Below are positions 967 to 13,398 of a stretch of 33,826 nt of DNA, in pieces; positions within the stretch are counted from its first letter, which is position 1; each line of letters opens with the position of its first letter. Source of the DNA: a virus; the IMG/VR virus record IMGVR_UViG_3300017739_000045, positions 1-33,826 of that record; one strand, 5' to 3'. Position numbers and translations under genes: made by a program. Under the pieces are notes generated by a model that saw nothing but the letters and a program-made list of their open reading frames with translations, was not told the origin of the DNA and ran no database searches.

Positions 967-1007
967 CTAACATTCTCTGGTTCTATATTGCAAAGCATCC
1001 ATATAGC

Positions 1008-1028
1008 TGTCAAGTAAATAATTTGACA
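1008..1028. promoter_or_regulatory. Back-to-back -35 hexamers in a perfect dyad
   Basis: TGTCAA at 1008-1013 and TTGACA at 1023-1028 form a perfect 6-base inverted repeat with a 9-base centre. Each is a consensus sigma70 -35 hexamer reading outward. On the minus strand the best -10 candidates are CAATAT (17-base spacing) or TATAGA (20-base spacing), both imperfect, upstream of the small terminase start at 966. On the plus strand no good -10 follows at normal spacing. A divergent promoter pair or a repressor dyad are both possible. Confidence 0.45.
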
Positions 1029-1150: not shown

Positions 1151-1195
1151 GGTTTGTCAATGGTAGGTTTGAACTCCGAAGGTTTGTTATGGTTA
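1151..1195 (+). repeat. Three GGTTTG direct repeats at 15-base period
   Basis: GGTTTG occurs at 1151, 1166 and 1181, exactly 15 bases apart, and the first and third 15-base units also share their flanks (TCAATGGTA against TTATGGTTA). Regularly spaced direct repeats of this kind are typical of initiator or regulator binding sites. The function is inferred from layout only. Confidence 0.5.
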
Positions 1196-1222: not shown

Positions 1223-1316
1223 ACATATAGATAGGAACCGTCCCTACTAGTCTAGGGTGCGACCCCTGTCGCCCCAGCGAGAGCTGGCTTCGCCCTAGAC
1301 TTTCCTATCTATATGT
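1223..1316 (+). ncRNA. Branched structured RNA candidate (leader or sRNA)
   Basis: The outer helix is a perfect 14-bp pairing of 1223-1236 with 1303-1316. A second perfect 9-bp helix pairs 1249-1257 with 1293-1301. Inside it are two hairpins: CGAC-ccct-GTCG (1260-1271) and CCAGC-gaga-GCTGG (1274-1287), the latter capped by a GNRA-type GAGA tetraloop, giving a three-way junction. CCCTA at 1242-1246 can compete with 1293-1297 for the same TAGGG (1253-1257), so two mutually exclusive folds are possible. A terminator-like hairpin and then the ribosome site of the first early gene follow at once, the usual order of a riboswitch or attenuator. The region is visibly more GC-rich than its surroundings. 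I do not recognise a known RNA class. An alternative is a DNA-level palindrome, such as an origin. Confidence 0.6.
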
Positions 1317-1321
1317 ACTAC

Positions 1322-1339
1322 CCCCTTGGGGATTTTTTT
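1322..1339 (+). terminator. Short terminator/attenuator hairpin
   Basis: CCC-CTTG-GGG (1322-1331, extendable by one pair on paper) is followed by A and seven T residues (1333-1339). CUUG is a known stable RNA tetraloop. The hairpin lies 5 bases after the structured RNA candidate and 11 bases before the AAAGGAG site of the first early gene, so it could end a short RNA or act as a conditional terminator. CCCCA at 1272-1276 could pair with TGGGG at 1327-1331 as an anti-terminator of only 5 bp. Confidence 0.55.
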
Positions 1340-1363
1340 ATAACCAAAACAAAGGAGTTCAAA

Positions 1364-1888
1364 ATGACAAACGCAAAAAAATCACACGATAAAAAAGCAA
1401 ATCAAGACATTTCGTCTACAACAATTCTAGATAAGCTAAAGAAGGCTTCAGAAGAGATTGTGAAGCTAAGTCCTTTACCACGTGACGAGAACGAGGTAGT
1501 GGGTATGTACTATGTAGACAGCATTATGTATGGTATGTTTGCAATGATTAATAAAACCAAAGAGAGTTATGACAAGTATGACGAACTGTACAACGAGTAT
1601 GACTCTAAATCACAAGAACAACACAAGAAAGCATCCGGTTTTGAAGATAAGACTGGTATGATTGACAACGACATAGATGACAAGGCTTCACACTATGAAG
1701 CAATCAGATATGACGTAAAGAGAAGATTAGAAAGACTTGAGATGATCAAGAGTTTCCTAGATGAGATTGTAGCTGTTCCAGCTATCAATCGAATCTACAC
1801 CAAAGGTGACTTTGATATATCAGCTAAAAGAAAACTAGCATATAGAAAAAAGGGTGTAACGAAAGTATACACCCCAGTGAAGCTGTAA
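1364..1888 (+). CDS. First early protein, charged coiled-coil, unknown function
   Basis: A 174-residue soluble, highly charged protein starting MTNAKKSHDKKANQD. I chose the ATG at 1364 because AAAGGAG lies seven bases upstream; an upstream in-frame ATG at 1313 would sit inside the structured RNA and terminator and has no ribosome site. The middle (YDELYNEYDSKSQEQHKKA and VKRRLERLEMIKSFLDEI) is predicted by eye to form long helices or coiled coils, with no signal peptide or membrane segment. It is the first gene of the early block, preceded by a structured leader and followed by a strong terminator, so it is its own transcription unit. That placement is typical of a phage host-takeover protein, but no family is recognised. 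Confidence 0.8.
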   Translation: MTNAKKSHDKKANQDISSTTILDKLKKASEEIVKLSPLPRDENEVVGMYYVDSIMYGMFAMINKTKESYDKYDELYNEYDSKSQEQHKKASGFEDKTGMIDNDIDDKASHYEAIRYDVKRRLERLEMIKSFLDEIVAVPAINRIYTKGDFDISAKRKLAYRKKGVTKVYTPVKL

Positions 1889-1900
1889 CACAGCTTCCTG

Positions 1901-1932
1901 CCCTCTGGGTTCACGCCCAGAGGGTTTTTTTT
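1901..1932 (+). terminator. Strong rho-independent terminator
   Basis: A perfect 9-bp stem, CCCTCTGGG (1901-1909) with CCCAGAGGG (1916-1924), encloses a 6-base loop and is followed by eight T residues (1925-1932). It ends the transcription unit of the first early gene, so a new promoter is required downstream; one is present at 2076-2104. Confidence 0.92.
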
Positions 1933-2075: not shown

Positions 2076-2104
2076 TTGCATTTATGCATTGTATTAATTA
2101 TACT
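2076..2104 (+). promoter_or_regulatory. Sigma70-type early promoter with operator dyad
   Basis: TTGCAT (2076-2081), a 17-base spacer and TATACT (2099-2104) make a near-consensus promoter. The spacer starts within a perfect dyad TGCAT-TT-ATGCA (2077-2088), which also appears at two other early positions (4261 and, with one mismatch, 5611). It should drive the gene group starting at 2128 and is probably controlled by a small HTH protein. Confidence 0.7.
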
Positions 2105-2373: not shown

Positions 2374-2695
2374 ACAAACACACGAACAATTGCTTAACGA
2401 TACGTTGTTTGAAAATGGTTGTAACTTTTTACAAGGTTATAGTTATAGAGTCAAACGTCTTGCTTGTGCTTACATAAACATACAACAACTACAAGCTAGA
2501 TTAAACTATGTAAAAAGTTATCAAAGCGAAAAGCTAGCAGACGTTCACGATCTATGGCTAGAACACAAGAACTTATTAGGTGATGAACTCAGAGTGCTGC
2601 TCAAAAGAAAAGATCTAAATAGTTTTGTGTTAGCTATGAATCAAACACTTCAAGCGTGGAGAAAATATTATAGAGAGGATAGGCATGTCAATTAA
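2357..2695 (+). CDS. Early protein of unknown function, helical
   Basis: A 112-residue protein beginning MNVLAEQTHEQLLNDTLF, likely all helix, with a QQLQARLNYVKSYQSEKLADVHDLWLEHKNLL stretch that looks like a coiled coil (written in parts: heptad-like from about residue 43 to 75). A GGGAG site lies seven bases before the ATG. It overlaps the preceding gene by 17 bases and the following ArdC-like gene by 11, in different frames. No domain is recognised. Its position immediately before an antirestriction gene is compatible with a host-defence role, but nothing in the sequence proves this. Confidence 0.7.
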   Translation: MNVLAEQTHEQLLNDTLFENGCNFLQGYSYRVKRLACAYINIQQLQARLNYVKSYQSEKLADVHDLWLEHKNLLGDELRVLLKRKDLNSFVLAMNQTLQAWRKYYREDRHVN

Positions 2696-3581
2696 ACAAA
2701 TAGCAGAAGATAATCTCAAGGCAATCACCGAGCAGATTATAAAAGATATGGAACAACACGATCCCAGTAAACCATTTATACCAAAGTGGATCGAGAACTT
2801 TCATATGAATGTAGATGGCAAAGCATACACAGGTTGGAATCAGTTTCATCTGAACTTCAAGTATGGTTACAAGACACCTGTCTGGGGTACATACAATCAA
2901 TGGAACAAGATAGGATTACATCCAGCACCACGCACAGGCATACCTTTATGGCAACCCATCATAAAGACAGAAGTAGATCCTAAAACTAACAAAGAAAAAG
3001 TAAGGAAAACATTCAAGACTGTAGCTATTTTTAGTATTGATGATGTAACTGGTGATACAAAAATCATTAACGATCTTAAAATATCTTTGATTAAACCTAC
3101 AAGAAAAGTAGATCACGATGTCATAGAAGAAATAGAAACTGACATACCAAAAGTAGGTGCAAAAATTACTGATGGTAGTAACAGAGCTTGTTATATACCA
3201 CAAACAGATGAGATCAAGATGCCACACAGAACACAGTTTGAGAAACGTGAAGCATACTACAGTACATTGTTTCACGAGATCACACATTGGACAGGGCATA
3301 AAAGCAGATGCGACAGAAACCTCAAGGGTAGCTTCGCATCAAATGACTATGCCTTCGAGGAACTTATAGCAGAACTTGGTGCAAGTTTTCATATGGCTCA
3401 CTATAACTTGTTGCACGAAACAAGAAGTGACCACGTGCATTACTTAAAGTCGTGGGCTAAGGCTCTTAGAGATAAGCCAGACTCACTACGTTCTGCTTGT
3501 AAGTACGCTAGTCAATCCTTCTTCTTTGTACGTGAGAAAGCAGAAGTGATTGCTAGCGATAAAGCAGTAGGTGATGTATGA
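2685..3581 (+). CDS. ardC: ArdC-like antirestriction protein with zincin metallopeptidase domain
   Basis: A 298-residue protein with the two-part layout of ArdC/TraC-type proteins. The N-terminal domain (residues about 5-135, with GKAYTGWNQFHL and PVWGTYNQW) is the ssDNA-binding ArdC-N type. The C-terminal part holds the zincin motif HEITHWTGH (residues 197-205) with a downstream helix EELIAELG (225-232) that should give the third metal ligand. Such proteins protect entering single-stranded or phage DNA from host restriction, and the metallopeptidase part may cleave a host factor; both are family knowledge, not shown here. All metal-binding residues are present, so the enzyme looks intact. 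Its early position fits a need for immediate protection after injection. Confidence 0.88.
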   Translation: MSIKQIAEDNLKAITEQIIKDMEQHDPSKPFIPKWIENFHMNVDGKAYTGWNQFHLNFKYGYKTPVWGTYNQWNKIGLHPAPRTGIPLWQPIIKTEVDPKTNKEKVRKTFKTVAIFSIDDVTGDTKIINDLKISLIKPTRKVDHDVIEEIETDIPKVGAKITDGSNRACYIPQTDEIKMPHRTQFEKREAYYSTLFHEITHWTGHKSRCDRNLKGSFASNDYAFEELIAELGASFHMAHYNLLHETRSDHVHYLKSWAKALRDKPDSLRSACKYASQSFFFVREKAEVIASDKAVGDV

Positions 3582-5600: not shown

Positions 5601-5629
5601 TTGATTACAATGCAGAAATGCATTATAAT
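5601..5629 (+). promoter_or_regulatory. Sigma70-type early promoter with operator-like dyad
   Basis: TTGATT (5601-5606), a 17-base spacer and a perfect TATAAT (5624-5629). The spacer contains TGCAG-AA-ATGCA (5611-5622), one mismatch from the perfect dyad at the two other early sites. It lies between a terminator and the recombination gene group and should drive that group. Confidence 0.8.
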
Positions 5630-10852: not shown

Positions 10853-12607
10853 TTAAAATGGGTTAGAATAGCGAAATGGAATATCTCCCCAAGCAGAATA
10901 AATATAATCATTATTGCTACCTTGCGACCCTAAATTAGTACCTCTTAAACGAAATCCGTTTGATAAATAATCTACTCCATCGTGTGTATTTGTACCTGTT
11001 TGCTCTGAACTTGTATCATTCCAATACACCTCTCTGTAATCTTCATCATTAAAAGGTCTTCTTGTTGCATCAGACACTAAATACGAACCTGCTCCATCTG
11101 TCCTTTTTAGCATTACTAATTTTGGGCGAAAGCCAGTATACACGAAAGCACCTTGAGTATTGCCTGTGCCGTTGTATGACCCAAATGAAGAGAAACCAGG
11201 AATTGATGTCCACGCATAACAAACATAATTTCCACCATTTTGATTAACTCTACCCTCAGTACCTATAGTAATTAAAGTAGCACTAGGTTCTGTATCATTA
11301 AACCAAGCAGTACCTGTAGCAACAGCATTGTTATTGTTTAAAGCAACGTTTTTTGTGGCTCCTAAACCTACAGAATATACTGCCCAAGTTTGCTGAGAAC
11401 TTAATCTTTTAATTAAAAAAAATTCTGGTGCCTTTCCTAGACCGTGCCCTATTGTAGCACCAGCACTACCATTTCCTGTATAGGTAATTATACTAAAACC
11501 AGCTTCTGCGTTTGCTTGTACTGTAGAAGTTATTGAACCACTACTATTACTAGCTGTTGTTCCCCCATTACAACGCCAACCCCAACCACAATATGTATCA
11601 CTACTATTATTTGAACCACCTGAAGTTCCTAGGGTAAAACCAGTTGATGTAAAAGCATTTGCAATTCCTGTATCTACATGAGTTCCACCATCTGTGTTAC
11701 TTTGTAAAGAATTATTTATTCCTCTTGTGCTATCTATCCAATACCAATTATTAGCTGAACCTCTTTCTTTTATTACTATTAAATCAGGTTGCATACCTAA
11801 AGATATAGCTCTATCATTTACACCATCACCAGTCCAAGTAGCTATAGCAAATTGTTTACCACCTATAAAATCATTATCAGTTTGTGCTGGATCAATGTCA
11901 TCATCAATCGCAACGTTGCCCTGACATAGGGCATTGAAGCCTGTAGGTGGGGTGTAATAAAAATCTCCGAAGCCGTTACCATCAGTTGCATTCGCAGAAC
12001 CACTTGTTTTATTACCATTAAACTGACTGCTTTGACCAGCATTAATGTGCATATAAGAAGAGCCATTATAACTAGCTACCCATATAGACATTTCTGTTCC
12101 AGCAGTAAATGTATCTACTTGCCCAGTTCCAGCTGCTGGATTTCCACTATTAAAATAAGTATTATTTTTACCAAACCACCATTTACCAGCATCTATATCC
12201 ACAGCTATTTGTACTATGTCACCATCTGCCCAAGCACTACCTCCTACAGAAGCACCTGATGTTGAACCAAATGCATTTATGTTACCATTTGTTCCAACAA
12301 TTTCTGACCTATGAGAAACAGTAGCACTTGTATAACCTTGGTAATTACTTACATTTTGCATTATTGAAATAGATGAAGTTTTAAGAAGTCCTAGTGTAGG
12401 CCAACCTCCGTTTGGATTATTTTCTGCATATAATTCTACATACCATTTACCACTTTTCATACTGATTGTAGAAGTTGCAGATGATGTACCACCAGTGTTA
12501 CCTCTGAATCTAGTATTAGCTTTATCAAAAATTGATCCTGAATAAGATAGACCAGGATTTACTTTAGCACCAGGATTCCAAGTTGCAAAATTACAATTAG
12601 CCGCCAT
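10853..12607 (-). CDS. Large adhesin-like tail protein with SPRY-like and DUF7483-like domains
   Basis: A 584-residue secretion-signal-free, Gly/Ser/Asn-rich protein. Residues about 48-200 resemble a B30.2/SPRY sandwich: SGKWYVELYAE, WADGDIVQIAVDIDAGKWWFGKNNTYF and a closing strand. Two similar parts follow (about 250-420 and 420-584): IATWTGDGVNDRAISLGMQPDLIVIKERG with WGWRCNGG, then FSIITYTGNGSAGATIGHGLGKAPEFFLIKRL with CYAWTSIPGFS, and finally FVYTGFRPKLVMLKR. These match DUF7483-type repeats of marine phage tail proteins, from memory. It probably binds the host surface. The N-terminus (CNFATWNP) looks like the internal continuation of the LamG protein encoded just upstream; see findings. 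Confidence 0.72.
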   Translation of the reverse strand: MAANCNFATWNPGAKVNPGLSYSGSIFDKANTRFRGNTGGTSSATSTISMKSGKWYVELYAENNPNGGWPTLGLLKTSSISIMQNVSNYQGYTSATVSHRSEIVGTNGNINAFGSTSGASVGGSAWADGDIVQIAVDIDAGKWWFGKNNTYFNSGNPAAGTGQVDTFTAGTEMSIWVASYNGSSYMHINAGQSSQFNGNKTSGSANATDGNGFGDFYYTPPTGFNALCQGNVAIDDDIDPAQTDNDFIGGKQFAIATWTGDGVNDRAISLGMQPDLIVIKERGSANNWYWIDSTRGINNSLQSNTDGGTHVDTGIANAFTSTGFTLGTSGGSNNSSDTYCGWGWRCNGGTTASNSSGSITSTVQANAEAGFSIITYTGNGSAGATIGHGLGKAPEFFLIKRLSSQQTWAVYSVGLGATKNVALNNNNAVATGTAWFNDTEPSATLITIGTEGRVNQNGGNYVCYAWTSIPGFSSFGSYNGTGNTQGAFVYTGFRPKLVMLKRTDGAGSYLVSDATRRPFNDEDYREVYWNDTSSEQTGTNTHDGVDYLSNGFRLRGTNLGSQGSNNDYIYSAWGDIPFRYSNPF

Positions 12608-12609
12608 AA

Positions 12610-13398
12610 TTAACTCCCTCCACTTGTTGGTGTATCAATAGAAGCGTGATCAGTACCTATGTTGTTGGTAGACCAGTTATTACCATTACCACTTGAATCT
12701 GTACCAAAAGCTCCAGACGCAAATTTTAAATGAAAACCATTATTACCGAATGAAGTTCCAGCTGGATTTTTCGGCACCCAAATATTATTCTTAAATTCGC
12801 CAAACTGCGTTTCATCATAAGCAGTACCATCAACAAAAATCCATTCTGCAAAACTAAAATTAGTACCTTGTACTGCGTGACCTATATTTGTTTTGTTGCC
12901 TATATACATATTGTTATTGTTCCAATTAGGAAAATCTTCTCCAGAAGATATGCTATTAGAAGATATTGTTAATTGTCTACCATTTAACCAAATTTTTAAT
13001 CTATCTATTTGTGTACTTTCATTAGAGTTATATCGCATAACTAAATGATACCAAGAAGAAGGATCAACTAGTGATACATCAAGAGCACCTATACCTAAAT
13101 TATAAAAGTCACAAGTTAAATTTCTGTCTGAAGCTCTTACTTCCAAAAATGAATATTGTCCAGCACCACCACCACTACCAGCAGTCCATAATATATTTTC
13201 TTGTCCACCAGAATATGGGTCGCCACCAAACTTAAACCAAAAACTCCAAGTCATAACATCTCTACTGGTAGCAGTTCCAGGAGAAAAATTCATATAACTA
13301 TCATCTGCAAAATCGAACCTTAAACTTTGCTCGATTTGATACGAATATATTCCTGTAGAACTAGCTGGTTTTTGAAAAAATTCACCTTGTAACGGCAT
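12610..13398 (-). CDS. LamG/concanavalin-like lectin domain tail protein
   Basis: A 262-residue protein. SLRFDFADDSYMNFSPG, then MTWSFWFKFGG, SWYHLVMRYNSN, DRLKIWLNGRQL and FAEWIFVDGTAYDETQFGEF follow the strand order of a LamG/concanavalin-type jelly roll (about residues 27-215), a sugar-binding fold common in phage adhesins. The tail GTDSSGNGNNWSTNNIG-TDHASIDTPTSGG is the usual end of this domain in marine phage adhesins, where it normally runs on into further domains. Here a stop codon occurs instead, two bases before the next start. A host-recognition role is inferred. Confidence 0.72.
   Translation of the reverse strand: MPLQGEFFQKPASSTGIYSYQIEQSLRFDFADDSYMNFSPGTATSRDVMTWSFWFKFGGDPYSGGQENILWTAGSGGGAGQYSFLEVRASDRNLTCDFYNLGIGALDVSLVDPSSWYHLVMRYNSNESTQIDRLKIWLNGRQLTISSNSISSGEDFPNWNNNNMYIGNKTNIGHAVQGTNFSFAEWIFVDGTAYDETQFGEFKNNIWVPKNPAGTSFGNNGFHLKFASGAFGTDSSGNGNNWSTNNIGTDHASIDTPTSGGS

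Follow-up and report, generated by a model that had tools for sequence, protein, structure and literature searches.

The c4 antisense RNA of phage P1, about 77 nt long, is encoded on the same strand as its target. In eukaryotes, including the MIR genes of plants, long imperfect hairpin RNAs arise from an inverted gene copy residing beside the gene, and these RNAs feed Dicer-type silencing; to our knowledge, bacteria lack silencing of this type, so such processing is not expected there. The cabRNA of staphylococcal phages originates within terS/terL, is about 400 nt long or less, and has not been reported to involve an inverted gene copy (PMC10686824). A literature search revealed no phage or bacterial system in which a whole gene is mirrored beside itself for a near-kilobase hairpin on the opposite strand.

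The locus considered here belongs to the complete virus record IMGVR_UViG_3300017739_000045, analyzed over its entire 33,826 bases (hereafter, the window). Among cultured phages, Pelagibacter phage EXVC031P Hodr has the closest large terminase (64% identity). The locus is flanked by terS, which heads the leftward late operon and served as the locus marker in relatives, and by the first rightward early gene, E1 (Table 1). According to dN/dS and the third-position excess, E1 is coding along its whole length; it has no Pfam or PHROG match, and its structure model (a predicted antiparallel helical hairpin, pLDDT 78) gave no informative match in a fold search against PDB. A common family could not be shown for the first rightward genes across the loci. 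The start codon of E1 (ATG at 1364) is preceded by an AAAGGAG site at 1351–1357. No convincing plus-strand promoter was found upstream of E1. A strong intrinsic terminator (1900–1925, plus strand) lies directly 3′ of E1, so the gene seems to be a transcription unit of its own; similar terminators follow E1 in the relatives L006, L018, and L019.

Other putative signals surround the locus. The probable late promoter of terS (982–1028, minus strand) includes a palindrome, TGTCAAGTAAATAATTTGACA, at 1008–1028, which occurs as a single exact copy in the window and lies 19–21 bases from TATAGA (the reverse complement of 982–987); centered near −42, it resembles a class II activator site. This arrangement of palindrome and TATAGA is conserved in related loci. 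A strong promoter for the second early gene (2076–2104, plus strand; TTGCAT-N17-TATACT containing the palindrome TGCATTTATGCA) is kept in L006, L018, and L019, and a similar site is present at 5606–5623 on the minus strand. The early gene at 2685–3581 combines an ArdC-N domain with a zincin-like metallopeptidase (anti-restriction type), and the phage encodes RecE-like and Erf-like recombination genes.

Table 1. Features of the terS–E1 locus (positions in the window).
Feature	Position	Strand	Description
terS (terminase small subunit)	577–966	−	PF03592, E 1.9e-11; phrog_51
Left arm	925–1237	−	Degenerate inverted copy of the 5′ part of E1; proposed 3′ arm of the minus-strand hairpin
SD helix, left strand	1168–1177		10-bp helix
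Hairpin A	1205–1218	−	With U-tract 1204–1197, intrinsic-terminator-like, leftward; reported by the terminator scan
Apex	1223–1316	−	Feature of the initial annotation; from folds and per-pair counts
P1 helix	1223–1237 with 1302–1316		15 bp
P2 helix	1249–1257 with 1293–1301		9 bp
Inner hairpin 1	1259–1272		GCGAC-CCCU-GUCGC
Inner hairpin 2	1274–1287		CCAGC-GAGA-GCUGG
Right arm	1302–1629	−	Antisense of the E1 leader and first ~88 codons; proposed 5′ arm of the hairpin
Hairpin T and seven T	1321–1339 (hairpin 1321–1331, T run 1333–1339)	+	4-bp stem; weak, terminator-like, rightward
SD helix, right strand	1354–1363		GGAGTTCAAA; Shine–Dalgarno and spacer of E1, directly before ATG
E1	1364–1888	+	First rightward early gene, 174 aa; the mirrored gene

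The initial annotation described a branched structured RNA at 1223–1339, followed by a terminator, a ribosome site, and the first early gene. All the helices and hairpins it listed, the seven T, the ribosome site, and the gene are present in the sequence, save that the perfect outer helix, given as 14 bp, is one pair longer. The fold itself is real (−62.1 kcal/mol for 1200–1350, z −8.0 vs. shuffles), but it does not end at the limits initially assigned: the element forms the apex of a much larger inverted repeat, imperfect and about 700 nt long, the stem of which reaches out to about 925 and 1640. The terminator is a weak, terminator-like site: its hairpin and T run exist, its stem has 4 bp, where an intrinsic terminator would have a G+C-rich stem of at least 5 pairs ahead of the T run, and it is absent from the output of the terminator scan. 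Hairpin A, the mirror image of hairpin T, sits in the apex ahead of the left arm on the minus strand and is conserved only in the window group. As annotated, CCCTA at 1242–1246 and CCCTA at 1293–1297 compete for one TAGGG (1253–1257), which both of them match; this strand-swap (1242–1257, 1293–1301) is kept in L019, including the loop, within a helix that is otherwise entirely changed. In agreement with the failure to match the element to a known class, no Rfam match was obtained at the gathering score in the window or in 20 relatives; below the threshold, the best match scored 21.8 bits against a cut-off of 40, and a weak match to a tymovirus tRNA-like family (E 0.02) was dismissed. The covariance model of the C4 antisense RNA (RF01695) gave no match with cmscan.

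Six phages fold alike in this region, each displaying the SD helix, an A/U-tract helix, a junction flanked by small hairpins, P1, and a branched tip. In these phages, the SD helix is 100% paired, with double changes at three pairs and none broken. At the same time, the tip of type A (window, L019) is unrelated in sequence to that of type B (L006, L033, L018). In another pair of loci, L088 and L089, flanks that are 97–98% identical enclose wholly different, yet in each case self-complementary, apex cores upstream of terS, suggesting that the apex behaves as an exchangeable cassette.

The large repeat was also recovered by self-BLAST (1096–1427, E 1e-19) as the only inverted repeat in the genome. 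Its arms align with 248/357 matched, the right arm covering half of E1 and the outer end of the left arm overlapping the start of terS; a window-wide alignment with loose gap costs had over-extended the arms to 304–2165 and was replaced by one with stricter costs. Since E1 codes over its whole length, the left arm mirrors a coding gene without being coding itself. The arms are thus a gene and its inverted copy, as in hairpin RNAs derived from inverted gene duplications. Folding is stronger on the minus strand, both for 1180–1350 (−82.5, z −10.2 vs. −72.7, z −8.2 on the plus strand) and for the larger fold in the window that includes the arms (−292, z −23.6 vs. −268, z −16.9). Two other origins of the repeat were considered and rejected: a decayed divergent paralogue (the left arm of the window lacks a long minus-strand ORF, and the pairing is maintained) and an amplification chimera (such artefacts would be near-identical, but the arms are 65–79% alike, and the isolate Hodr has the repeat).

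The same plan is found in numerous uncultured marine relatives of Pelagibacter phages. Hodr is the one cultured phage that shows it, with arms at 11942–12257 and 12307–12635 and the gene at 12374–12817 of record OQ414635. In relatives found via the neighboring genes, which are related loci, so that the counts are not independent, 60% of 57 loci have upstream DNA complementary, at z > 4, to the 60 bases surrounding the start of their first rightward gene, as do 0.9% of 220 control genes. Long arms exceed z 6 in 37/57 loci, reaching z 136, and are lacking at that level in 20/57. The arms start 44–84 nt, mostly 55–80 nt, before the ATG. In the longest-armed relatives the mirror spans the whole gene, beginning about 65–80 nt ahead of the start codon and ending 29–53 nt beyond the stop. 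In L070, for example, 609/770 columns match, and the right arm reaches 64 nt upstream of the start codon and 53 nt beyond the stop; L097 and L058 show a similar picture. For L058, folding of 1070 nt gives −660 kcal/mol. Within a second set, five loci (L120, L136, L164, L168, L174) have an arm that ends about 29–51 nt past the stop. An independent scan of 50 loci, using a different terS alignment and scored by BLAST alone, yielded 13 at E < 1e-6 (a strict BLAST test; best 9e-112), and in the genome collection the repeat is carried by terS relatives from marine assemblies, L196, L197, L199 (751-bp arms, E 6e-147), and L200. Among more distant terS loci, mostly from Firmicutes, only L227 was otherwise comparable (arm about 116 bp). 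The scaffold of a bacterial isolate, Caldovatus aquaticus (L201), carries a distant terS with an inverted repeat of ~200-bp arms upstream (E 6e-14) and may represent a prophage and a second cultivable case. A set of 50,697 phage records yielded a single close terS relative, Hodr; its entry, OQ414635, bears the title EXVC031P Hodr, yet the locus tags EXVC032PBaldr. In eight loci (L058, L072, L095, L120, L136, L164, L168, L174), the gap between the hairpin and terS harbors a conserved G-rich tract, e.g., GGGGGGAGAGAGGGAGAGGGGGG, downstream of TTGACA and adjoined by ACGTAACG-type repeats, possibly a late promoter start with its operator.

The pairing of the arms is maintained by compensatory changes, as comparison of the homologs shows; the expectation of a conserved structured RNA, for which the initial annotation had named covariation as the check, was thereby borne out. 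In the fold shared by the six phages, changes on both sides were found in 17 pairs vs. 9.0 in shuffles, none of 500 shuffles reaching 17, and the count on the minus strand is 17 as well; it is inflated by related rows, but entire runs of double changes separate the helices. When the partner was slid by 1–3 columns, only 0–4 double-changed pairs were left. Double changes from one Watson–Crick pair to another numbered 99 against ~15 expected under independence, with related pairs being reused in both directions.

The mismatches of the arms are informative of the strand under selection. Read on the E1 strand, they comprised 176 A.C vs. 43 G.T in the first set; for third codon positions alone, at which the gene can vary freely, the figures were 48 and 8. 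The independent set gave 119 vs. 4, with 12 loci in favor and none reversed. Since A.C on the E1 strand corresponds to a G.U wobble on the opposite strand, selection has preserved pairing in a minus-strand RNA antisense to E1; its anatomy and strand are well supported. The features of a cis-encoded antisense RNA were accordingly present at the sequence level: opposite-strand complementarity to the target mRNA and selection on that strand. The bias was absent or opposite in Hodr, L114, L046, and L049, nearly vanished when low-confidence pairs were included (328 vs. 299), and was 29:13 for pairs projected between relatives, confident pairs only. Early tests, confined to short helices, gave an ambiguous result (27 G.T vs. 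44 A.C) because most of the stem had been missed; the outcome became clear once the full arms were used. A part of this picture could also arise if only the left arm underwent strand-biased mutation, but not the 30:1 ratio or the excess of paired double changes.

These findings speak against the plus-strand riboswitch or attenuator that the initial annotation had proposed. Pairing in such a device would be kept on the strand of the regulated gene, contrary to both mismatch ratios; the fold runs through the Shine–Dalgarno sequence and start codon into E1, and the apex core is swapped between close relatives (L006/L018 vs. window/L019; L088 vs. L089), unlike that of a ligand aptamer. The other option, a short terminated plus-strand sRNA, does not account for the paired and covarying sequence that flanks the U-tract on either side. 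What stands of the suggested control of the first early gene is that the element concerns the first rightward gene; the control itself is our inference, as is the transcription of the minus strand, and would be post-transcriptional.

The reading favored here, which we consider just as liable to be right as wrong, is that a fold-back antisense RNA is made from the minus strand over E1; that this RNA controls E1 is given the same even chance. Leftward transcription through E1 would yield first a perfect antisense of the gene, then the branched apex, and last the degenerate, sense-like left arm, which would fold back on the antisense; the resulting imperfect duplex would measure ~300 bp in the window and as much as ~750 bp in relatives. 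We propose that, in the window group only, hairpin A serves as a termination/read-through switch: a stop at hairpin A, before the left arm, would release free antisense blocking E1, and read-through would add the left arm, leaving the antisense sequestered or inactivated. Because of its wobbles and bulges, the 3′ arm would pair more weakly than the E1 mRNA; hence, the mRNA, a perfect complement, could displace it. No convincing minus-strand promoter was found beyond the right arm.

Four other explanations have to be weighed, the first being a plus-strand leader, which we regard as rather unlikely. In rightward transcripts from near terS, the left arm would pair with the start of E1 and mask the ribosome site there; only transcripts that begin inside the apex would then yield E1. 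The Shine–Dalgarno sequence of the first gene is indeed paired with sequence more than 70 nt upstream in 62% of 69 loci vs. 24% of 429 controls (p 7e-10), a pairing that follows from the mirror spanning the E1 start and that permits this explanation, too; the SD helix covaries, and the L070 apex contains, by eye, a promoter-like TTGAAA-16-CATAAT. However, the wobbles are tolerated on the other strand, and hiding a start site does not require mirroring a whole gene past its stop codon. Unlikely as well is the possibility that the left arm only mops up, in cis, unwanted E1 antisense from leftward read-through, so that E1 and the late operon are expressed together; the RNA itself would then lack a positive function. 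The minus-strand wobbles, the arms equal to the mRNA unit, and the late operon as the next genes leftward would fit, but the protection is confined to a single gene, whereas read-through would pass through all the early genes, and a source promoter was not found. With still less probability, the long double-stranded RNA is itself the product, acting as a decoy for RNase III or RNA-sensing defense or as a scaffold for the helical E1 protein; the size and stability of the duplex (see L058 above) and the conserved branched apices are in keeping with this, but it leaves unexplained why the arm must be the neighboring gene. An inverted gene duplication kept alike at the DNA level by gene conversion or template switching, devoid of RNA function, is very improbable: the recombination genes are at hand and the arms track their own gene, but conversion (or drift) predicts equal A.C and G.T, contrary to the ratios in both sets and at third positions, where both arms are free.

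Tentatively, and with a chance well short of even, the fold-back RNA over E1 may exemplify a widespread phage class, in which a gene and its full-length degenerate mirror give a 300–750 bp imperfect duplex on the opposite strand, adjusted to be less stable than the perfect gene:antisense duplex so that the mRNA of the gene can open it, i.e., a natural strand-displacement switch over one gene. If true, this would be a new RNA-based control of phage genes, or it would show that long double-stranded RNA has a part to play in bacterial infection. Some "intergenic" phage DNA is under strong base-pair selection hidden from annotation. The arrangement is amenable to testing, since it is also present in the cultured phage Hodr.

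Compared with the known systems, the locus combines familiar elements in a different way. Like HK022 put RNA, riboswitches, and attenuators, it places a folded RNA ahead of a terminator-like site and the first early gene; those are plus-strand leaders with a conserved core, whereas here the core is swappable and the wobbles lie on the other strand. Like cabRNA, it would give a structured phage RNA with double-stranded stretches from the terminase region (PMC10686824). With P1 c4 (RF01695) it shares phage RNA segments complementary to the ribosome-site region of a neighboring gene, but in the present locus hundreds of bases are paired, and the pairing evolves like that of a minus-strand RNA. 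As in bacterial cis-encoded antisense RNAs, the predicted transcript comes from the strand opposite the gene and is fully complementary to the mRNA; those RNAs are not known to carry a second, degenerate gene copy folding back along their length. Unlike in the plant MIR genes and other eukaryotic hairpin RNAs, one arm of the hairpin is the gene itself.
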